From: an uncultured Flavobacteriales bacterium
Lineage (GTDB): Bacteria; Bacteroidota; Bacteroidia; Flavobacteriales; BACL11
Assembly: GCA_913063045.1 (NCBI GenBank)
Contig: CAJXYM010000001.1
Span: 1 to 64,000, forward strand
Reading direction: 5' to 3'
Length of the DNA: 64,000 nt
Part shown: piece by piece, positions 36,846-55,219 of the stretch
Layout: each line of letters begins with the position of its first letter
Numbering within the stretch: position 1 is the stretch's first letter
Program-made: the position numbers and the translations under genes
Notes under the pieces: model-generated
Database searches by the model: none
Seen by the model: the letters and a program-made list of their open reading frames with translations, nothing else
Told to the model about the DNA's origin: nothing

Positions 36846-37549
36846 TATCTTAAAGATTCTATTATTTCATGTGATTTTAGATTGTCTAAATTATAATGAT
36901 GTGCTTTATAGTATTGAATAATAATTTTTAGTAGAGTTTTCCTATCTTTATAATGCAACTCACCTCCATTATTTAATAATATTTTTTTAAGATTATTTAA
37001 GTTTTTACCAGAAATGATATTCTCTGTAATTATTGCAGATGGAATAAATGAAGCTGTTTCTAAGTCAAAAAAATCATAATTCATATTTTCTTTTGAAGGA
37101 TAAAATCCTAAAAAGTAGGTGAGTGATAGCAGGAACGAAATTGCATAATTAACGCTTATTTTTTCATCATTATTAATTATTTGTGTCTCTGTCCAAATGA
37201 AATCGAAAATTCTCTGGTCTTTTTCTCCAACAACTAGAATTTTCGTTAATACTTCTGCCATAAAAACTCTCAATAATTGTTTATTAATATTTAAATAACT
37301 ATTCTCTAACGAACATGCCAGTCCTATCTCTTTTAATATGTGAACTTCGCTCTTGTTGTTTGTTTGAGCGCTTAGGCTAATTAGGCTTAAACTTTGTAAT
37401 AAAGATATTTTATTTTTAGATTTTTTCCCTCTTCCTCTTTTTACAGAAAACGATAATAAACCAAAGTCTTCTGTAAATATTTTTGCTATTATTGATTCTT
37501 CACCATACTTATATTTTACTAATGAAATGCCTCGTGTTGAATAATGCAT
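36845..37549 (-). CDS. recO: DNA recombination/repair protein RecO
   Basis: A 234-residue protein of the RecFOR pathway that loads RecA on SSB-covered single-stranded DNA. The N-terminal OB fold is clear (STRGISLVKYKYGEESIIAKIFTEDFGLLSFSVKRGRGK, then LLQSLSLISLSA). The helical C-terminal region contains LRVFMAEVLTKIL. The usual C-terminal zinc-finger cysteines are absent, as in many Bacteroidota RecO proteins. Start and stop codons overlap by 1 bp with the PorZ-like gene before it and the TonB receptor gene after it (TAATG on both sides), so a DNA-repair gene is translationally embedded between two envelope genes. Confidence 0.9.
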   Translation of the reverse strand: MHYSTRGISLVKYKYGEESIIAKIFTEDFGLLSFSVKRGRGKKSKNKISLLQSLSLISLSAQTNNKSEVHILKEIGLACSLENSYLNINKQLLRVFMAEVLTKILVVGEKDQRIFDFIWTETQIINNDEKISVNYAISFLLSLTYFLGFYPSKENMNYDFFDLETASFIPSAIITENIISGKNLNNLKKILLNNGGELHYKDRKTLLKIIIQYYKAHHYNLDNLKSHEIIESLR

Positions 37550-39816
37550 TATTTAATAAATAAAATCTTTGATACCATTTTTTCTTGCCCTATTTCATTA
37601 GAAGAGAAAACTAGGTATACGCCTGTTCCTACCCTTGAATTATCAATGTTTTTTCCATTCCAATTAGCTTGACCACCATTTGCATTTGTTTCATAAACTA
37701 AATTGCCGCTTATATCTGTAATTTTCACATATGCGTTTTCATAAAGATTTCCAATTGCAATATTTCCATTATAATTTTCTTTTACTGGATTTGGAAAAAC
37801 AAAAGTATTTTCTTGAATCTCTTCTCCCTTTGTAGCATCTGATCTAAATGAAATTAATCCTTTTTCTGTTCCAAAAAACACTTCTCCATTTGATGAGTTT
37901 ATAGCAATGCTAATTATATTATTAGAAGGCAACGGGCTATTTTCTTCAGTGAAATGATGGATTTCGCTTAACCCATCATCGGAAAGTAGATATACACCTG
38001 ATTTCTTTGTTCCTATCCATTTTCTGTTCGCTCCATCTACTTTAATATCATTTATTGATTCACTACTTAGTAAATATTGACCATAATCACCCTCTTGAAT
38101 TAATATTTGTTGACAATCAAAGTTATAACCACTAAAAACTGTACTTGGGTAATAAAAAACAGCTATACCTTCTTTTGTACCAATCCATATTTCGCCATCT
38201 AAGTCTTTTGTTATTGAAAGTATCTCCAGAGTAGGAAGATTTCCATTTCCTGTTGTTGTATTTAGAATTTTATATTCATCATCATTGATGTTTGAAATAG
38301 TATTATTATCGTTATAAACAAATAGACCTTTATTATAGATTATTCCCCATTTCTGATTCAGATCATCTATAATTAATTCATCAAAATACAAGCCCTCTAG
38401 GCTTTGATTCATCGTAAATGAATGCCATTCACCATTTACTGTTTTTACAAATAATGGATTACTTACTTGAGAATTTAGTCCCCATAAGTTATCATTATTA
38501 TCTTTTTTCAAATCTGATATTTGAATTCTATTATTTGAGTAGTATGTTGTATCTAAGATTCCTCCTGTGTTTTCATATCCGTATTTAATAATATGCTCTC
38601 CACCTTCCATTACACTAATTCCATTATACCAAGAAGCATAATATTCTTTATCTGCAATTTTAGCAATACTCACAATGTCTCTGGCTCTGTTTAGTTTCTC
38701 AAAATCATAATTTACCCATTCGTTGTATTTGTCCATAATTGAAACACCATCATTATTTAGTTGATTTACACTAAAGTTAATGTGACCTCCATGAGAGACG
38801 TATAGTTTCTCGTTAAAATAAAGATTAAAGCTGTTGTTAGAGAATGGGCTGTTTACATTTATCACCTCAGCTAATTCATTGTCTTTAATTTTTATTAGTC
38901 CTAAATTTTTATCTGCAACCCATAACTCATTATTATTATAGTAACAGTCTCTAATATTTGAAAATCCAGTTATTACTTGAACATCATCTCCTAGCTGATT
39001 AATTAGATGAATTTTTGAGCTATCTGTAATCGCCAGCTCATTACTATTTGAACCTAAAACAGTATTTTTAAAGCCAATGTTTATATACTTTTCCCATTTT
39101 TGATTTTTTATAAAAAGACTATCAAAATCTCCATCTTTTACACTAATTAAATGATTATTGAATAAAACAATGTTTTTAAAAGTATCATTTGTATTGCTAC
39201 TATTCTCAAAGATTGTATCTTTTTGCCACTGATTAAAGTCCGACAGGAAAAGATTGTTTTTATAAGCAAAATATATTCCTGATGAGGTTGCACAGTAAAT
39301 TGTATCACTTTTTATCGCGACTTGATTTATCGATTCATAATTTGCATTTAACCCAATTTTATAAGTGTCTTTTATTTCAAGTTTGATCATATCTATTACA
39401 ATTAACCCAAATGATGATGCTAGATATGCTATGTCATTATCAAAGAAAATATTATTAATCTCTTTTAATCCACTAATTTCTTTTCTTTTTATGTCTGATA
39501 TGTTATTTATCAGACCTTCATCGATGATGTCAATATTGCAATTTTCGTAAATTACTACCACTTGATTATTATATTTATTATATCCAATATCACTTACGCC
39601 CACATCTGATAATCCATTTACTTTAGACATTCTGTTTATGCTATTACTTTGCGTGTCATAGAAATAAAGAGATCCATCTGCCACACAATAAGTCTTTGTG
39701 TTTGCGCAAGCCACTTTATCAGCCGTTTGATATGACATATAGTTTTTCCAATATCCAATAGGAACATCTTGACCAAACGTTATAAAAGGGAATAATAAAA
39801 ACAATAAATATTTCAT
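37549..39816 (-). CDS. porZ: PorZ-like T9SS beta-propeller protein
   Basis: A 755-residue exported protein: signal peptide (about 1-15, FITFGQ end), two seven-bladed-propeller-type regions rich in two-component-regulator-propeller repeats, and a C-terminal type A sorting-like domain. Repeat examples are LPTLEILSITKDLDGEIWIGTKEGIAVF, INDIKVDGANRKWIGTKKSGVYLLS and ISIAINSSNGEVFFGTEKGLI. The C-terminal domain has VFPNPVKENYNGNIAIG, VKITDISGNLVYET and ANWNGKNIDNSRVGTGVYLVF. PorZ has this architecture and forms part of the PorU-V-Q-Z attachment complex that anchors T9SS cargo to A-LPS. Location next to recO is also typical of porZ as I recall it. The alternative is a generic two-component-type propeller T9SS cargo. 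Confidence 0.75.
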   Translation of the reverse strand: MKYLLFLLFPFITFGQDVPIGYWKNYMSYQTADKVACANTKTYCVADGSLYFYDTQSNSINRMSKVNGLSDVGVSDIGYNKYNNQVVVIYENCNIDIIDEGLINNISDIKRKEISGLKEINNIFFDNDIAYLASSFGLIVIDMIKLEIKDTYKIGLNANYESINQVAIKSDTIYCATSSGIYFAYKNNLFLSDFNQWQKDTIFENSSNTNDTFKNIVLFNNHLISVKDGDFDSLFIKNQKWEKYINIGFKNTVLGSNSNELAITDSSKIHLINQLGDDVQVITGFSNIRDCYYNNNELWVADKNLGLIKIKDNELAEVINVNSPFSNNSFNLYFNEKLYVSHGGHINFSVNQLNNDGVSIMDKYNEWVNYDFEKLNRARDIVSIAKIADKEYYASWYNGISVMEGGEHIIKYGYENTGGILDTTYYSNNRIQISDLKKDNNDNLWGLNSQVSNPLFVKTVNGEWHSFTMNQSLEGLYFDELIIDDLNQKWGIIYNKGLFVYNDNNTISNINDDEYKILNTTTGNGNLPTLEILSITKDLDGEIWIGTKEGIAVFYYPSTVFSGYNFDCQQILIQEGDYGQYLLSSESINDIKVDGANRKWIGTKKSGVYLLSDDGLSEIHHFTEENSPLPSNNIISIAINSSNGEVFFGTEKGLISFRSDATKGEEIQENTFVFPNPVKENYNGNIAIGNLYENAYVKITDISGNLVYETNANGGQANWNGKNIDNSRVGTGVYLVFSSNEIGQEKMVSKILFIK

Positions 39817-39848
39817 ATGTTTAATTTAACCCTTTAAATCTAAAAAAA

Positions 39849-39878
39849 TTGTTGTTCTTCTCATGTTTGTTAAATTTG
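39849..39878 (+). promoter_or_regulatory. Promoter of tRNA-Arg
   Basis: TTG at 39849-39851 and TAAATTTG at 39871-39878 are separated by 19 bp, the canonical Bacteroidota -33/-7 arrangement. The -7 element ends 10 bp before the tRNA. This is the only promoter in the window with both elements well placed. Confidence 0.62.
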
Positions 39879-39888
39879 CAACTTAATA

Positions 39889-39962
39889 GGCCCAGTAGTT
39901 CAACTGGATAGAATGTCAGATTTCGGCTCTGATGGTTAGGGGTTCGAATCCTCTCTGGGTCA
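39889..39962 (+). tRNA. tRNA-Arg (anticodon TCG)
   Basis: A 74-nt cloverleaf. The acceptor arm GGCCCAG pairs with CTGGGTC (one G-T). The D-arm follows. The anticodon stem TCAGA/TCTGA encloses loop TTTCGGC, giving anticodon TCG for CGA codons. The T-arm is AGGGG-TTCGAAT-CCTCT and the discriminator is A at 39962. CCA is not encoded, so it must be added by nucleotidyltransferase. It lies alone on the plus strand between the divergent PorZ-like gene and the convergent fibronectin III gene, whose stop codon is only 7 bp beyond its 3' end. Confidence 0.96.
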
Positions 39963-39964
39963 CA

Positions 39965-39992
39965 AATAGTTATTCTATTATTAGTTTTTTTT
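39965..39992 (+). terminator. Weak candidate terminator of tRNA-Arg
   Basis: A 5-bp A/T-rich stem (AATAG 39965-39969 with CTATT 39975-39979, loop TTATT) is followed shortly by a run of eight T (39985-39992). It overlaps the 3' end of the convergent gene. The stem is weak, so this is tentative. Confidence 0.28.
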
Positions 39993-41268
39993 CTGTTCTA
40001 CCGTCTTTATATAAATATATAATAACTTGATTACTATTTTCTTCTGTTTCAATTCCGTTTATATTTATTGTTTTTTTAATTTCATTAAATATGATTCCTT
40101 CATTAATATTTGACGGACAACTTATAAAAAATGTATTGCTAAAGGTAAGTTGCTCATTAAATTCGGATTCTAATTCTGTTACTATATTTAGATCTCCATT
40201 TATATTTGGGTTAATGAAAAGGTTTGTGAAGTTAATTTCACTCGTATACCCAGATGTGTAGTTATTTCCGTCGTTTGGTGATGTGGTAGATACTCTAACC
40301 CCCGAGGAAATATTTTCAATAGCAAAGAATCCGATTAGACTATTTGATGTGTCGTATGAATTAATAATAGCATAATTAGGCCCCACAATCAATCCTGCTC
40401 TTAATACTGTTTCAATATTTTGGTTTGTACTATTTAAGTTTGCATAACCAACTGAATCTCCTGAATTTATTGACTGAATGTCAAAATAACCTCCGTCAGT
40501 AGTTATTGTACTTGTTCCTATGTCCGGTTGATCTTGAGTTTGCTCTATTGTCACAGATAGCCCAGAAGCTGTATTACATTGATTGTTTTGTAAAGCAGTA
40601 TTTACAACTGGATTAAAAGGCGCAGGTATAAATGATTGGGTTGTAAATGTGTCTGAAATAGACCATAACGAGCCCATATTAAGAGTTGAGTCGTGGTAAG
40701 CCATAATCTCCCATTCATATGTTGTGTTCTGTTGAAGTACAGGTATTAACACGTTATTATTAACCCCATCAATAATATTTAGGTTTTGCCAATTATTAGT
40801 GTTGAGTATTCTGTAGTGTACACGATATCTATCAGCATTATTTAAAATATTCCAATTAGCTTGTGCTGAGAAGTATGTTATGTTGTTGGTGTTTAGGTTG
40901 TTAGGGCTTGGGCATAGATTTGTTGAAGTTACAAATGAATCAGCTGGTGTCCAAGAAGATGTATTAAGATTTAATGAATCACAATGATTCCTTATTTGCC
41001 ATATATATGTTTCTTGTGGAAGTAGATTGTTTATTGTCTTATTGTTTAGAACAGAATCTATATTGTTCTTGTATAACCACTGACCACTATTAATTTCTTT
41101 GTAGCGTATTTTGTAATTATAAGAGCTGTTTGATTGTGACCAATTTAAATTAGCACTATAATAATAAACATTTGTTTCAAATGTTGTGTCTGGTCTCAGA
41201 CACTGAGCCTTAGAGTTTAGACTTATGGAAAATAAAATGATTATAAAAAAGAGAAATTTTCTATTCAT
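39970..41268 (-). CDS. Exported fibronectin type III domain protein
   Basis: A 432-residue protein with signal peptide (about 1-21, FSISLNSKAQC) and two fibronectin III domains, at about 25-112 (TNVYYYSANLNWSQSNSSYNYKIRYK and ETYIWQIRNHCD) and about 118-210 (YFSAQANWNILNNADRYRVHYR and TTYEWEIMAYHD). A beta-rich C-terminal half follows, containing many S/T/N and IENISSGVRVSTT. It ends with VIIYLYKDGRTEKKLIIE, which resembles the terminal strands of type A cargo but without the full YPNP motif; secretion by T9SS is therefore uncertain. Its -7 element is 4 bp from the ATG. No catalytic residues are seen; an extracellular binding protein is likely. Confidence 0.75.
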   Translation of the reverse strand: MNRKFLFFIIILFSISLNSKAQCLRPDTTFETNVYYYSANLNWSQSNSSYNYKIRYKEINSGQWLYKNNIDSVLNNKTINNLLPQETYIWQIRNHCDSLNLNTSSWTPADSFVTSTNLCPSPNNLNTNNITYFSAQANWNILNNADRYRVHYRILNTNNWQNLNIIDGVNNNVLIPVLQQNTTYEWEIMAYHDSTLNMGSLWSISDTFTTQSFIPAPFNPVVNTALQNNQCNTASGLSVTIEQTQDQPDIGTSTITTDGGYFDIQSINSGDSVGYANLNSTNQNIETVLRAGLIVGPNYAIINSYDTSNSLIGFFAIENISSGVRVSTTSPNDGNNYTSGYTSEINFTNLFINPNINGDLNIVTELESEFNEQLTFSNTFFISCPSNINEGIIFNEIKKTININGIETEENSNQVIIYLYKDGRTEKKLIIE

Positions 41269-41272
41269 AATA

Positions 41273-41280
41273 CAAAGATA
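41273..41280 (-). promoter_or_regulatory. -7 promoter element of the fibronectin III gene
   Basis: Minus-strand TATCTTTG (TAnnTTTG), ending 4 bp before the ATG at 41266-41268. Transcription would begin at or next to the start codon. It occupies most of the 29-bp gap after the methyltransferase gene. Confidence 0.5.
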
Positions 41281-41297
41281 AAAAAATCATTGAGTGG

Positions 41298-42185
41298 TTA
41301 TTTGATACTTCTGAAAATATATATATTACTTGAACACCCCCTGTTTCCTAATAGCGCTTTGATATTCGATAAAAGCCCTATAAAAAATCCTTTTAAATAT
41401 TGTTTTTTTCCGTTTTTAAATTCATTGCTTAAAAGGGAGACATAAAATGAGTCAAAAATCATTCCTTTCTTTTTGATAAATTTAAAATTGTTTTTTTCAA
41501 AAATATTTATAATTGTTTTTTCACTAAAATGATTTAAATGTATTGGAAGATCCCATGCGGCCCAAAATTCCTTATAGTATTCTGCATCAAATGACTTGTA
41601 GTTTGGTACTGCTATTACTATTGTACCTTTTTCATTAATAATCCTGTCAAGATTAGTGATTGTTTTATTTAAGTCATAGACATGTTCTAGAACATGCCAC
41701 ATACTAATACTATCAAACTCTTTCTCTTTATATTGTTTTAAATCGCTATTCTTATTGACTTTTATTTTGTAATTATTAATAGCCTTCTCTCTAGCAATAT
41801 CTGATGGCTCTATTCCTTCGCATTCAATTCCTTTTTTTGCTAAAGCATTTAAAAATTCTCCAGTACCACAGCCAATATCAAGATGTTTTTTGCTGTTAGA
41901 AGTTTTTAACAAAAGATTGCTTTTTGAAGCTATTGCGTGTTTTCTTACAATTTGATACATTAAGTTAAATAGTCCCTTTTTGTTATTCGTATGAGAAATA
42001 TAACTATCATTTTCATAGTACCTATTCATCGCTTCTTCTTTTGGCCTTGGATTGGTGAATAAAAAATCACAGCTTATGCATTCTGCTATCTTAAATTTCT
42101 CTTTAGTTGTACTATAGTCCCTGCTTATTATAAAATCTTTTATTTTATCACTCTTACAAATTGGGCAATTACTTAACTGTATCAT
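41298..42185 (-). CDS. Class I SAM-dependent methyltransferase with N-terminal zinc ribbon
   Basis: A 295-residue protein. The N-terminus holds two CxxC knuckles (CPIC at 7-10 and CISC at about 36-39), a probable zinc ribbon. The middle is a Methyltransf_23-type Rossmann domain: motif I LDIGCGTGEFLNAL at about 102-115, acidic IEPSD in motif II, and ISMWHVLEHVYDLN in the post-II region. NHFSEKTIINIFEKNNF follows and the end is helical. The substrate is unknown; related proteins act on sugars or small molecules. The start overlaps the mnmG stop by 4 bp (ATGA), so it is coupled to mnmG. This neighbour relationship is familiar in flavobacteria but does not prove a tRNA role. Confidence 0.86.
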   Translation of the reverse strand: MIQLSNCPICKSDKIKDFIISRDYSTTKEKFKIAECISCDFLFTNPRPKEEAMNRYYENDSYISHTNNKKGLFNLMYQIVRKHAIASKSNLLLKTSNSKKHLDIGCGTGEFLNALAKKGIECEGIEPSDIAREKAINNYKIKVNKNSDLKQYKEKEFDSISMWHVLEHVYDLNKTITNLDRIINEKGTIVIAVPNYKSFDAEYYKEFWAAWDLPIHLNHFSEKTIINIFEKNNFKFIKKKGMIFDSFYVSLLSNEFKNGKKQYLKGFFIGLLSNIKALLGNRGCSSNIYIFRSIK

Positions 42186-44053
42186 CTTCCCATATATATT
42201 AGTAGAACATTTATGTCTGATGGAGATACTCCACTAATTCTACTTGCCTGTCCTATTGATTTTGGCCTTATTTGACTTAATTTCTCTTTACCTTCCGTAG
42301 AAATTGAATGAAGTTTTTTATAATCAAACATTTCTGGTATTACCATTTCCTCAAGTTTGTTTAATTTTTTTGCTGAAGCTTCTTCTTTATTTAAATACCC
42401 TCCATATTTAATAGTTATCTCTGCTTGTTCAATTGCATTGTCTTCAATCTCATGCATATTTACAAATTCTATTAATTCTTTTGATATTAATAAATCCTCA
42501 TATTTAATATGGGGTCTAGATAGAAATGAAAAAAGTTTCTTTTTTTGTTTAACTGTTGCGCTATTTTTTTTCTTTAAAACTTTGTTTATTTTTTCAGGCT
42601 CAATATTTTGTTTTTTTAAGAATTTAATAAGTTTATCAGTTTGCTCTATTTTTTTATTTAAATTATCTAATCTTTCTTTAGATGCTAGACCTAGTGTAAA
42701 TCCTTTTTTTGTTAGCCTTATATCTGCATTGTCTTGTCTTAACAATAATCTATATTCAGCTCTCGATGTAAACATTCTGTAGGGTTCATCTGTTCCTTTT
42801 GTTATAAGATCATCTATTAAAACACCTATATAAGCATCTGACCTTGATAAAATAAATTCTTCTTTATTTTTTGTTTTTTGATGTGCATTAATCCCCGCCA
42901 TTAGACCTTGGCACGCCGCTTCCTCATATCCTGTTGTTCCATTTATCTGTCCGCAAAAAAACAAGTTTTCTATTAATTTTGTTTCTAGAGTATGTTTTAA
43001 TTGCGTTGGAGGAAAATAATCATACTCTATTGCGTACCCTGCTCTAAATAACTTTACTTTTTCGAGACCTTTTATTTTTCTTAAAGCTTTAAGTTGTATG
43101 TCTTCGGGTAATGAAGTTGAAAACCCATTTAGATATATTTCGATAGTTTCTCTTCCTTCTGGCTCTATAAATAATTGATGCCTCTCTTTTTCAGAAAATC
43201 TAACAATTTTGTCTTCTATTGATGGGCAATACCTTGGGCCTAAACCTTGTATTCTTCCGGCAAACATTGGAGATGATTCAAACCCCTCTTGTAAAATATC
43301 ATGCACTTCTTTTGACGTGTAGGTTATAAAACAACTTTTTTGATCTTTTATTAATGTTTTTTCTAAATATGAAAAGTTATTTATTATTTGATCACCCTTT
43401 TGCTCTTCCGTTTTGCTATAGTCTATTGTTCTACCGTCTAGTCTTGGTGGAGTGCCTGTTTTCATTCTTCCGTGAGTGAATCCTATATCAATTAATTGTT
43501 TAGTTATTCCTTCTGCTGCAGGCTCTCCTGATCTTCCCCCTTTGTAGTTTTTCTTACCCAAATGTATTAAGCCATTTAGAAAAGTTCCATTACATAATAT
43601 GACGCTTGCGCTTTCTATATTTACCCCCATCTTTGTAATGACTCCAACTGCTCTTTTTTTCTCTATTATTATACTATCTACACTATCCTGATAAAAATCT
43701 ATATTATTATTTTTTTCTAGCGCAATTCTCCATTCTCTTTCAAATTTCTTTCTGTCACATTGTGCTCTTGGGCTCCACATTGCTGGACCCTTTGATTTGT
43801 TTAGCATTCTGAATTGAATTGAGCTTTTGTCGGTTATAATTCCCGACATACCACCAAGGGCATCTATCTCTCTAACTATTTGTCCTTTTGCTATTCCTCC
43901 CATTGCAGGGTTGCATGACATTCTTGCTATTGTCTCTAGATTCTGAGATACTAGTAGTACTTTTGACCCCAATGTTGCCGCTGAATGCGCAGCTTCACAA
44001 CCTGCATGCCCACCGCCGACAACTATTACATCATATTTTTCGTTTAAAGTCAT
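42182..44053 (-). CDS. mnmG: tRNA uridine-5-carboxymethylaminomethyl modification enzyme MnmG (GidA)
   Basis: FAD-dependent enzyme of 623 residues that, with MnmE, installs the (carboxymethyl)aminomethyl group at U34 of tRNAs decoding split codon boxes. FAD-binding GGGHAGCEAA (13-22) is at the N-terminus. The family motifs GRSGEPAAEGIT (about 190), RMKTGTPPRLDG and FFCGQINGTTGYEEAACQGLMAGINA follow, and the C-terminal helical domain ends with IGQASRISGVSPSDINVLLIY. Its leader contains a parS-like palindrome only 2 bp before the ATG. It is 25 bp from ybeY and overlaps the downstream methyltransferase by 4 bp. MnmE is not in the window. Confidence 0.97.
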   Translation of the reverse strand: MTLNEKYDVIVVGGGHAGCEAAHSAATLGSKVLLVSQNLETIARMSCNPAMGGIAKGQIVREIDALGGMSGIITDKSSIQFRMLNKSKGPAMWSPRAQCDRKKFEREWRIALEKNNNIDFYQDSVDSIIIEKKRAVGVITKMGVNIESASVILCNGTFLNGLIHLGKKNYKGGRSGEPAAEGITKQLIDIGFTHGRMKTGTPPRLDGRTIDYSKTEEQKGDQIINNFSYLEKTLIKDQKSCFITYTSKEVHDILQEGFESSPMFAGRIQGLGPRYCPSIEDKIVRFSEKERHQLFIEPEGRETIEIYLNGFSTSLPEDIQLKALRKIKGLEKVKLFRAGYAIEYDYFPPTQLKHTLETKLIENLFFCGQINGTTGYEEAACQGLMAGINAHQKTKNKEEFILSRSDAYIGVLIDDLITKGTDEPYRMFTSRAEYRLLLRQDNADIRLTKKGFTLGLASKERLDNLNKKIEQTDKLIKFLKKQNIEPEKINKVLKKKNSATVKQKKKLFSFLSRPHIKYEDLLISKELIEFVNMHEIEDNAIEQAEITIKYGGYLNKEEASAKKLNKLEEMVIPEMFDYKKLHSISTEGKEKLSQIRPKSIGQASRISGVSPSDINVLLIYMGR

Positions 44054-44055
44054 AT

Positions 44056-44071
44056 TGTTTCACGTGAAACC
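44056..44071. promoter_or_regulatory. parS: parS-like ParB-binding palindrome
   Basis: TGTTTCACGTGAAACC contains the 14-bp perfect palindrome GTTTCACGTGAAAC. It matches 15 of 16 positions of the widely conserved chromosomal parS consensus (final A replaced by C). It lies in the 25-bp gap between ybeY and mnmG, 2 bp before the mnmG ATG on the minus strand. No parA or parB gene is in the window, and no second full copy was found by eye. Confidence 0.75.
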
Positions 44072-44078
44072 TGCTTAA

Positions 44079-44504
44079 CTATCTAATAATGAGTTTGTTA
44101 AGTTTTTTTAGGTAGTAGTTTTCTTTTTTTCTTATTATTTTCTTTTGATCTTCTTTTTTATCTTTAAAACCTAGCAAATGTAGTAAACCGTGTGCTATAA
44201 CTCTATTTACTTCATCGAAATAATTTTCATTATATATCTTTGAGTTTTCCTTTACTCTTTCTGTGCTAATCAAGATATCTCCCGACACTTTATCTTTAAC
44301 ACAATAATCAAAGGTTATGACATCTGTAAGTGTATCATGTTTTAAATATTTCTTGTTATAATTTAATAACATTTCATCATTACAAAAAACAATGCATAGT
44401 TCCCCTAATTCCTTTTTTTCGCATATGCAGATTTCCTCTAACCAACTTTTAATTTTCTTAGACTGTTTAAGTCTAAATTTAGTTTGATAATTAAAGTCTA
44501 TCAT
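44079..44504 (-). CDS. ybeY: Endoribonuclease YbeY (16S rRNA maturation)
   Basis: A 141-residue metallo-RNase of the UPF0054 family involved in 16S rRNA 3'-end processing and ribosome quality control. The core motif RVIAHGLLHLLGFKDK (about 105-120) carries two zinc-ligand histidines. The third His of the Gram-negative HGxLHLxGYDH form is replaced by the GFKDK variant, which I recall as usual in Bacteroidota. The TDVITFDYCVKDKVSGDILIS segment upstream is also standard. It overlaps the DUF4175 gene by 14 bp, so the two are coexpressed, and is followed by the parS-like site. Confidence 0.93.
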   Translation of the reverse strand: MIDFNYQTKFRLKQSKKIKSWLEEICICEKKELGELCIVFCNDEMLLNYNKKYLKHDTLTDVITFDYCVKDKVSGDILISTERVKENSKIYNENYFDEVNRVIAHGLLHLLGFKDKKEDQKKIIRKKENYYLKKLNKLIIR

Positions 44505-47500
44505 TCTGATCTTTTAAAATTCTTTTAAAATATTTGTTTACTTCTTTTTTATAGAATGGGTTAAGGTTTAGTGGAGCCGATTTCAATAAGTCTTTTTGAG
44601 ACTTTTTTATTTTAATAAAATCATCTATCTTTTTGTTTTTCCCATTTTCCTGGATTAGCCATTCATTAGCTTCTCTTTTTTGATCTTCTCCTTGTTCTTT
44701 ATCTGCTTTTTCTGATTCTAAAAATTTGGTTATTATGTTCTCTAACCTATTTAGGGTTTCCTTAGTTATTTGATTATTAATAATATCAAATTCATTTTCT
44801 TTCATTTCTTGAGACATTTCTTTTGATATTTTGGGGTCACCATCCATACCATTTTCCTTTTCTAAGGATTCAAGTTGCAATCGTATTAGCTCTTGTTTCT
44901 TTGCCATTTCCATCAGTTTTTTACTATCCTCTCCCTTATTTCCTTTCGAATCTTTTTGCTTTCCTTTTTTCATAGATTCTTTTAGTTGATCATTTAATTT
45001 TTTTTGAGCATTTTTTAATTCATTTTTCGAAGGTTTATTACTATTCTTTGGGTTATTACAGTTCTTAGGTTTGTTACAGCTAGTTGGCATATCACTAATT
45101 TCTTGCTGCATCTGTTTTAAAATTTCTGACAATAAGAGTGCCAAGTTATTAGTTGAAGTCATAATAAATTGTTGTTTTTCTGCAGATTTATTAATTTTTC
45201 TTTCTTCGAGATTTTTGGTAGCTTTTTTTATGTTATTTTTAATTAAACTTATTTCTTCATTTATTTTAGATTCAATCTGTGGAGCTCTTTTACTTAGTGC
45301 TAGTAAGGAGTCTTCTATAATCTTACTATCATCAGATAGTTTCTTTTGTTGTTTGACTAAAAGTAAGAACTCCGGGTTTTCTTTTTTTACACTGTTTGTT
45401 GTTCTTAATAAATCCTCTTGATTAAATGAAAGCTTGACTAGGTTTTCAAGAATTTGTCTTAGAGTTTCAGCATTTTCGATTTGAGTATCTGATGTGTTTC
45501 CTTCTTGCATACTTTCCATCTTTTTTTCAAGTTGATCTAGTTTTTCCATGACTTTTTCTTGCGACTTACTTGATTTAGATTTTTTATTTTTTTCAAGAGA
45601 CTTTTTACTTTCATCCATATCTTTTTTAATCTCTTCTTGTAATTCTTCTGTTTTTGGAATATTGTTTTTGTTTTCTAAATCTTTATTTTTAACTTTTAAT
45701 TCCTTAATAGAATCTTCTAATTCTTCCATTTTTTTCTTGATTTCTTCTTGTTCTTTTTCTAAATCCTTATTATTATTTTTTGAAGAATCTGTTTTGTTTT
45801 TAAGTTTTTCTTGTAGTTCTTTGAGGTTTTTTATTTTATCAATTATCTCTTCAGTTTTTTGCTCAAATTCAAGTTGTTTAAATAGCTCGAGCTCTCTATC
45901 TAACTCTTTTTCTAAATTTTCATTTTGTTCTTCTAATTTTTCTAAAAGTTCTCTTATTTTTTCTCTTTCTCCTTCATCAAGAATTTTCTCAAGTTCTTCT
46001 ATTAATTTTTTTGTGTCTTCATCTAATATCTTTTCCATAAGCTCTTGAAGTTTTTTTTGTTTTTCAAGGATCTTACTATTATTTTTCTTTAAGTTTTTAG
46101 AGTTTTTTTTGGTTTTTTCTATTGTTTTTAAAATATTATTTTCTAATTGCTTTTGTTTATTTATAAGCGCTCTTATTTTTTCCTTTTCTTTCCATTCAAG
46201 TGTTTTTTTCTCAAGAATTTCTTTTTGTAAATCCTTTATTTCATCTTTTAGTTCCTGACTTTGCTCAATAGATTCGTTCATTCCTGATTTTATCTTTGAA
46301 TTTAAAAGACTTGTTTCTTTTTTTAATTCTTCTCTACTTTTTTCCTTATGAGTAAAAACTTTACTTTTAGTTGATTTAGAGCCGTTAATATTATCATTAT
46401 CCCATACTTCAAAATAATACCGAATACTTGCTCCAGCCTTTAGTTTATTCTTATTAAAATTAAAGCTATGATAGAACATTTGATTAGTATTCTCTTTATC
46501 TATATTAATAACTGAACTGTATGTTTCTTGTGAGTCTAATTGAAAGATTTCATAATGAAAAACTAGTTTTTCAAAACCATAATCATCACTTATCTCTCCA
46601 CTGAAAATATTCTCTGAGTTAAGACTATCTATAATTTCTTCTAATTTTATTTCAGGTCTTTGATCTTTAATAACTTCAATGTTAAAACTTATTGTGTCGC
46701 TAAAACTATATTGATTTTGTGTTATAATTTGAGCATTAATGTTTTTTAAACATTTTTTTTTGAATATAAATTCTTTTTTTACTGCAAATTTCCTTGAATC
46801 ATCATTTATTACAAAAATTAAATTATTTGTGTTTTCAAGCAATAGATTCCATCTAACTGTCGTTCCTTCTGGGATTTTAATGTTGCCAAGATTGCTAATT
46901 ACTTTACTTTTTATTTTTGTGTATTCCGGGTAATTTAATTGTGTTTTAATTTCTCTAAATGATGGTCTTGGAATAACTATTATTTCAAACTCTTTAGAGG
47001 TATATCCTCCAGCTAGAATTTTAAATTTTTTATTTTCTTTTAGGTTTTTAAAAAGAAATGAATAGTCGTTACTATTTTTTTTCTTGTTCAAAGAAAATTT
47101 ATTTGATGATAAAATAATATAAGCCTTTTCTGGAAGTACATTCCCTTCTAAATTTAGCTCAATTTTTAGATCCTTGTATTGTTCTACAACTAAATCATTT
47201 ATTATATTAAAATCGAAAGGAGCCTTTGGCTCGAAAAATGTATTATGTTTTAATATTCTAGAAGAACTATCTGATAATATCCTGCCATTACCACTAAAAA
47301 GCAATAACACTATTAAAAGTATTGGAATAGCTAGCCATTTCCCTTTCTTTAGATTACCAGATAAGTCAATTGCTGCTTTAAACTTTATGGGATTAATTTC
47401 ACTAGTTTTTTGATCTATACTTGCTTGGATAAGATGATTTGACTCTTGGCTCATCTCTGATAACTCCAAAATATTTAATAATTTATCATCAATTTCTTTG

Positions 47501-47808
47501 AAATGTTTTCCAATTATATCGGCGGCTTGTCGAAAGCTTAATACTTTTCCTATTCTAAAAATTTTCAGTAAAGGGATTAATAAAAAATTAATTATAATAA
47601 TAGAGTTGATAATGATATAAAGCCAAAATAATATTGTCCTAAATCCAACATCAAAATTTGAGTAATACTCTAGGACCGAAAAAAAGATAAAGAATATTAA
47701 AAGTGTTAATAGAACTAAAACACCTCCCTTTATTAGCTTATTGATGTAGTATTTTTTAATAAACTCTTTAAGTTTATTAATTAAAACGCTATTTTCTCTA
47801 TTAGACAT
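44491..47808 (-). CDS. DUF4175 family membrane protein with long charged coiled coil
   Basis: An 1105-residue protein. Hydrophobic segments lie near 30-48, 58-81 and 156-172, followed by a beta-rich extracytoplasmic region (about 190-480, including Ig-like repeats such as SGEISDDYGFEKLVFHYEI). A very long lysine/glutamate-rich coiled coil (about 490-1000) contains many E-K-L and K-K-x-E heptad-like runs, and a short C-terminal segment ends the protein. The DUF4175 family is found next to ybeY in Bacteroidota; its function is unknown. It is anchored in the inner membrane, with most of the chain probably periplasmic. It might span the periplasm mechanically or bind peptidoglycan, but this is speculation. 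The candidate -7 element is 5 bp before the ATG. Confidence 0.85.
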   Translation of the reverse strand: MSNRENSVLINKLKEFIKKYYINKLIKGGVLVLLTLLIFFIFFSVLEYYSNFDVGFRTILFWLYIIINSIIIINFLLIPLLKIFRIGKVLSFRQAADIIGKHFKEIDDKLLNILELSEMSQESNHLIQASIDQKTSEINPIKFKAAIDLSGNLKKGKWLAIPILLIVLLLFSGNGRILSDSSSRILKHNTFFEPKAPFDFNIINDLVVEQYKDLKIELNLEGNVLPEKAYIILSSNKFSLNKKKNSNDYSFLFKNLKENKKFKILAGGYTSKEFEIIVIPRPSFREIKTQLNYPEYTKIKSKVISNLGNIKIPEGTTVRWNLLLENTNNLIFVINDDSRKFAVKKEFIFKKKCLKNINAQIITQNQYSFSDTISFNIEVIKDQRPEIKLEEIIDSLNSENIFSGEISDDYGFEKLVFHYEIFQLDSQETYSSVINIDKENTNQMFYHSFNFNKNKLKAGASIRYYFEVWDNDNINGSKSTKSKVFTHKEKSREELKKETSLLNSKIKSGMNESIEQSQELKDEIKDLQKEILEKKTLEWKEKEKIRALINKQKQLENNILKTIEKTKKNSKNLKKNNSKILEKQKKLQELMEKILDEDTKKLIEELEKILDEGEREKIRELLEKLEEQNENLEKELDRELELFKQLEFEQKTEEIIDKIKNLKELQEKLKNKTDSSKNNNKDLEKEQEEIKKKMEELEDSIKELKVKNKDLENKNNIPKTEELQEEIKKDMDESKKSLEKNKKSKSSKSQEKVMEKLDQLEKKMESMQEGNTSDTQIENAETLRQILENLVKLSFNQEDLLRTTNSVKKENPEFLLLVKQQKKLSDDSKIIEDSLLALSKRAPQIESKINEEISLIKNNIKKATKNLEERKINKSAEKQQFIMTSTNNLALLLSEILKQMQQEISDMPTSCNKPKNCNNPKNSNKPSKNELKNAQKKLNDQLKESMKKGKQKDSKGNKGEDSKKLMEMAKKQELIRLQLESLEKENGMDGDPKISKEMSQEMKENEFDIINNQITKETLNRLENIITKFLESEKADKEQGEDQKREANEWLIQENGKNKKIDDFIKIKKSQKDLLKSAPLNLNPFYKKEVNKYFKRILKDQNDRL

Positions 47809-54626: not shown

Positions 54627-54998
54627 ATGCACAAGTTTATAAAAGCAGAGAAGTTATGTAATAAAGTTGACTCAGATATTCTTTTTTCCAATGGAAAAAG
54701 CTTCTTTTTAGAACCATTTAGAATTGTTTTTTTAAAGAAGGATTTTGATACTAATCATTTTTCACGCATTCAAATTGTTGTGCCTAAAAGGAATATTTCA
54801 AAAGCAGTAGATAGAAATAAAATCAAAAGATTTATTAGAGAGGCATACCGAAAAAATAAGAAAAGTTTAATTGATAACCTTGAATTTCATAAAACTGTAA
54901 TTGATTTTTCTTTGATATATCAGATAGATGAGATTAAATCCTTCTCTTTCATTGAAGAAAAAATAAAAGCTATCTTGTTAAGTTTAATGCTAAAATAA
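54627..54998 (+). CDS. rnpA: Ribonuclease P protein component
   Basis: A 123-residue basic protein subunit of RNase P, aiding the M1 RNA in 5' processing of tRNA precursors. The RNR signature appears as AVDRNKIKRFIREAYRKNK (about 67-85), preceded by the strand IQIVVPKRNISK. The stop overlaps the yidD start by 1 bp (TAATG). In many phyla rnpA follows rpmH; here, as is usual in Bacteroidota, it is next to hemD instead. The RNA subunit (rnpB) was not seen in the window. Confidence 0.93.
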   Translation: MHKFIKAEKLCNKVDSDILFSNGKSFFLEPFRIVFLKKDFDTNHFSRIQIVVPKRNISKAVDRNKIKRFIREAYRKNKKSLIDNLEFHKTVIDFSLIYQIDEIKSFSFIEEKIKAILLSLMLK

Positions 54999-55219
54999 TG
55001 AAGAAGATATTTTCCTCCTTTTTTTTGTTGATTATTTTTATTTATCAAAAAACAATATCTCCAATAATTCCTGCTCGTTGTCGTTATACCCCAACTTGTT
55101 CAGAATATTCTCGTCAGTGTTTTAAAAAATTTAATATCTTCGAGGCTATTAAATTGTCTATAAAAAGAATATTAAAATGTCACCCTTGGGGAGGCAGTGG
55201 ATTTGACCCTATACCTTAG
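54998..55219 (+). CDS. yidD: Membrane protein insertion efficiency factor YidD
   Basis: A 73-residue small protein assisting YidC-dependent insertion of inner-membrane proteins. It has a hydrophobic/amphipathic N-terminal helix (about 5-17). The strongly conserved core runs through SPIIPARCRYTPTCSEYSRQC, with the typical cysteine pattern, and ends KCHPWGGSGFDPIP. It overlaps rnpA by 1 bp, the classical rnpA-yidD arrangement, and is followed 6 bp later by the S41 peptidase gene. YidC itself is not present here. Confidence 0.96.
   Translation: MKKIFSSFFLLIIFIYQKTISPIIPARCRYTPTCSEYSRQCFKKFNIFEAIKLSIKRILKCHPWGGSGFDPIP

Follow-up and report, generated by a model that had tools for sequence, protein, structure and literature searches.

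A parS-like palindrome beside mnmG, the probable single centromere of a Flavobacteriales chromosome

In a 64,000-nucleotide stretch of DNA (hereafter the window) from an uncultured Flavobacteriales bacterium, we describe a palindromic site preceding mnmG that very probably constitutes the sole parS of the chromosome's ParABS partition system, held at or near the replication origin, with ParB binding predicted from the sequence. An origin-marking, single-site bacterial centromere is a known kind of element. Less expected are its change of side at mnmG within one family and its separation from dnaA and parAB, which customarily mark the origin.

44056-44071, minus strand: parS-like site GGTTTCACGTGAAACA, with a perfectly palindromic core at 44057-44070
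42182-44053, minus strand: mnmG (gidA; Pfam GIDA, 1.9e-164; TIGR00136), to which the site is linked throughout the family
44079-44504, minus strand: ybeY (Pfam YbeY, 4.4e-26), upstream neighbour of the site

The site and its partition proteins

Positions 44056-44071 read TGTTTCACGTGAAACC on the plus strand and GGTTTCACGTGAAACA in the direction of mnmG, with one mismatch to parS (TGTTTCACGTGAAACA), and the core, GTTTCACGTGAAAC, is a perfect 14-bp palindrome. The site is thus within the limits by which a chromosomal parS is recognised, i.e., at most one to two mismatches to TGTTTCACGTGAAACA and a palindromic core. The first-pass annotation had pointed out the palindrome, its single deviation from the 16-bp parS and its position, and the coordinates bear it out: between the end of ybeY (44079) and the start of mnmG (44053), both minus-strand genes, there is a gap of 25 bp most of which is occupied by the site, with 2 bp between the end of the site and the mnmG ATG. 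The genome-wide search with the 16-mer that it had proposed returned this site as the only one with two or fewer mismatches in the 1.37-Mb genome, so that copies are not dispersed, and no other parS-like site with fewer than three mismatches was found in the assembly. As this comprises 51 contigs and is 85% complete, a second parS could sit in the missing part. By an order-1 Markov model of the window's contig, scaled to 1.37 Mb, the genome should contain by chance 0.001 exact cores and 0.011 sites with no more than one mismatch. The motif is short, and a chance palindrome in AT-rich DNA might be considered; given this expectation such a reading has a negligible probability, and the conservation of the site in all assessable relatives, described below, refutes it.

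No parAB had been seen in the window, which is correct: the genome's single ParB_N gene is on contig C3, directly after a ParA gene with which it forms a parA-parB operon. A genome devoid of parB, which would have spoken against the site, is therefore not what we found. The encoded protein contains ParB_N, HTH_ParB and ParB_C domains and carries the GERRFR and ENIQR motifs. Its best PDB sequence match is a structure of Noc, a related ParB-fold protein, and for this reason we checked the residues that decide between parS and the Noc binding site (NBS). Specificity is set by residues 173 and 201, being R173/G201 in the parS type vs Q173/R201 in the NBS type (PMC7383237). In the alignment to Noc, R and G occupy these two positions in our ParB, so that the genome provides a cognate ParA together with a ParB of the parS type. 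The NBS was also considered as an identity for the site itself, which requires a Q173/R201 protein and a core whose positions 1 and 6 are adenine and cytosine, and it was discarded, the core being GTTTCACGTGAAAC and the protein R173/G201.

No SMC protein (TIGR02168, SMC_prok_B) scored above the cut-off in the window's genome or in 20 relatives. In agreement, two Bacteroidetes without recognisable condensin have been reported (PMC10197239). The likely role of the site would then be ParA-driven segregation of the origin, and loading of SMC is not expected.

Conservation at mnmG and the two positions

We mapped parS-like sites and mnmG in 52 genomes of the family. mnmG was above the cut-off in 43 of them and G037, whose contig ends on the 3' side of mnmG, was set aside, leaving 42 assessable genomes, all of which (42/42) keep the site at mnmG. 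The first-pass identification as parS is accordingly strengthened by the uniqueness of the site, by the canonical parAB of the genome and by a location beside mnmG in every assessable relative. Two alternative positions were found, and in no family genome examined do they occur together. In genera g1, g4, g5, g6 and g12, the window included, the site lies 1-3 bp before the mnmG start codon, and in the remaining genera 94-97 bp past the mnmG stop codon, inside the next gene, which encodes a methyltransferase.

41298-42185, minus strand: SAM-dependent methyltransferase gene downstream of mnmG (Pfam Methyltransf_23, 5.9e-30), host of the alternative parS in relatives
42072-42087, minus strand: empty counterpart of the alternative parS position, codons A-E-C-I-S, AGCAGAATGCATAAGC

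Both classes are conserved as DNA. In the upstream class, comparison of 18 genomes shows 12 invariant core bases out of 14, the remaining two varying within Y or R, in a gap sequence that otherwise diverges. In the downstream class (21 genomes, with the form TGTTTCATGTG(A/G)AACA) the site encodes V-S-C-(E/G)-T within a conserved I-V-x-C-x-x-C knuckle, and the six third-codon positions of the motif show no variation (2.0 bits), as compared with a mean of 0.57 bits and a maximum of 1.41 bits at third positions around it. The centre of this coding version, TGTTTCATGTGAAACA, is CATG and not CACG, which the Cys codon TGT would explain. At the corresponding methyltransferase codons of the window, AGCAGAATGCATAAGC, parS is absent. 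On the MnmG tree the two position states require two changes, of which well-supported branches force one.

The proximity of the site to mnmG had led to the suggestion that ParB binding could also affect mnmG expression. Taken further, the palindrome might be an operator or RNA element controlling mnmG, such as a regulator site or a start-codon hairpin, whose likeness to parS is secondary; ending 2 bp before the ATG, it could indeed cover the ribosome-binding region. However, in half of the family the site is found beyond the opposite end of the gene: 21 relatives lack it before mnmG and have it past the stop codon, within the next gene. Furthermore, RNA structure at the site is no better than chance (z = -0.21), and neither a promoter above chance nor a terminator was detected there. 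With a sequence that equals parS and a ParB in the genome, we regard such an element as very improbable. Since the position relative to mnmG is not conserved, neither RNA fold nor promoter exceeds chance and a terminator is lacking, regulation of mnmG by the site is not supported.

Two further observations concern the downstream region and other matches. In the methyltransferase hosts of genus g14 (L039, L043, L044 and L047) the second cysteine of the zinc knuckle is lost (C-E-T-T), and so is the second cysteine of the first knuckle in the same proteins (CPLF/CPLS). A candidate second parS, GTTCCATATGAAAC, present in G033, G034, G036 and G039, was rejected as coincidence, as the matches have no common location (only G034 and G036 agree) and in two of the four genomes fall within codons for V-P-Y-E-T.

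Location relative to the replication origin

We calculated GC skew at four-fold sites, with gene sums set on the plus strand, over 144 of the 148 kb of the window's contig (C1). The skew is -0.26 to the left and +0.07 to the right of the best break, which falls between the gene midpoints of mnmG (43,118) and ybeY (44,292), and none of 1000 gene shuffles gave a break as strong. The sign of the skew thus flips at the site, in line with the origin-proximal position that the first-pass annotation had suggested, and it is by skew that the site is placed near the replication origin.

38683-44292, no strand: four-fold-site GC-skew break, the inferred replication origin, with the best break between midpoints 43118 and 44292
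54627-55219, plus strand: rnpA and yidD (Pfam Ribonuclease_P, 2.7e-14; YidD, 3.8e-25), about 10.6 kb from the site

In many other bacteria rnpA and yidD lie close to oriC. A search for DnaA-box clusters near the site found none, and exact TTATCCACA is absent from the 144 kb of contig, so that oriC itself was not located.

A different possibility is that a real parS was inherited near mnmG while the origin lies elsewhere, for example at dnaA, in which case the site would be no origin marker. In favour of this, contig C3 carries dnaA, and the closed genomes of the order that were examined all have the site far from dnaA, which, like parAB, is hundreds of kb to 1.5 Mb from mnmG. The skew of C3 nevertheless shows no break (gain 2.6; 293/1000 shuffles as strong), and the gain at dnaA itself is 0.3, against the break at the site on C1. 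In five relatives, too, the skew flips at or near mnmG. The closed genome G110 has its break at 2.54-2.56 Mb and mnmG at 2.538 Mb, with dnaA 1.45 Mb and parB 1.03 Mb away. For G064 and G062, in which four-fold-site skew is dominated by gene direction, plain GC skew or one-strand genes were used. The plain skew of the closed genome G064 changes sign at about 0.77 Mb, close to mnmG (0.749 Mb); dnaA (2.16 Mb) is 1.41 Mb from mnmG and lies near the opposite flip. In G062, mnmG (0.54 Mb) falls within the interval of the flip (0.52-0.60 Mb) and dnaA is at 0. Within the family, the break of G031 (180-182 kb) is next to its site (177 kb), and that of G048 (359-393 kb) is about 20-50 kb from the site (411 kb); given this offset, and a skew too weak to use in G029, the link to the origin is approximate in these last two genomes. 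Studies combining Hi-C and coverage in species including a Bacteroidetes placed ori at parS clusters, and noted in gut species that dnaA need not mark it (PMC10197239). An origin away from the site is therefore very unlikely. As the skew flips at or near mnmG and not at dnaA, it is the neighbourhood of parS and mnmG that marks the skew origin. The site is most likely the only parS of this chromosome, at that skew-inferred origin.

Regarding gene arrangement, dnaA (37538-38929) and parB (about 64393-65298; L007) lie about 25 kb apart on contig C3 of the window's genome (G000), and dnaA and parAB share one contig in several relatives too, both far from the skew origin. In G064, dnaA is close to the inferred terminus of replication, on nearly the opposite side of the chromosome from the inferred origin. 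Upstream of ybeY, beside the inferred origin of the window, a minus-strand gene (44491-47808) encodes a protein of 1105 aa, whose long middle part is rich in Lys/Glu and coiled-coil-like and which is weakly similar, below the cut-off, to DUF4175; gene order is the same in G034.

A one-site centromere compared with known systems

In the mechanism that we propose, a CTP-clamp type ParB, encoded with ParA far from the site, would load on the 16-mer and slide onto the adjacent DNA over ybeY-mnmG, and a ParA gradient would then separate the freshly replicated origin regions. Binding, spreading and segregation are here inferred. The site would be kept in place by its proximity to the replication origin, no more than a few kb away, and not by an effect on mnmG expression. 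Selection appears to act on the presence of a ParB site at the origin and within about 2 kb of mnmG, and not on one exact base position.

With the chromosomal parS of the ParABS systems of Bacillus subtilis, Caulobacter and Pseudomonas aeruginosa the site shares the 16-bp palindrome TGTTTCACGTGAAACA, an origin-proximal location and one ParB per chromosome. Unlike in those systems, there is one site here, parAB and dnaA are not near it and no SMC is above the cut-off. In P. aeruginosa a single origin-proximal parS is sufficient (PMC4368675). For the family as a whole, it is somewhat more likely than not that the chromosome is partitioned from one parS that switched between mnmG sides and in some lineages was rewritten into zinc-knuckle codons (I-V-S-C-E/G-T-C) of the next gene, staying at the origin that dnaA and parAB left, without recognisable SMC condensin. 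What this example contributes is a clear case in which a one-site centromere has switched sides of a gene and can be written into codons. A ParB site can apparently be superimposed on protein-coding sequence. Two alternative positions in one family constitute a natural experiment on the movement of such a centromere. Also, parS beside mnmG offers a cheap, sequence-only origin marker for the uncultured genomes of the order, in which dnaA misleads.

For this order, we found no open-access paper dealing with parS and mnmG. In its other families parS often occurs on both sides of mnmG, and sites flanking the gene are typical of the closed or good genomes of the order, whereas here only one side is occupied; sister genera have the site inside the downstream coding sequence, and families f7 and f9 have the downstream site only. 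In the endosymbiont-sized family f16 (0.3-0.6 Mb) neither the motif nor a ParB hit was found in the genomes listed. The same site just upstream of gidA/mnmG is found in Alphaproteobacteria, Chlorobiota and Bacteroidota. Scanning 85,000 species genomes for the pattern gave at least 118 genome records with parS shortly upstream of mnmG; among the matches listed, 84 are Bacteroidota by title and the rest mostly Alphaproteobacteria and Chlorobiota. This broad occurrence indicates that parS beside mnmG is old and widespread.
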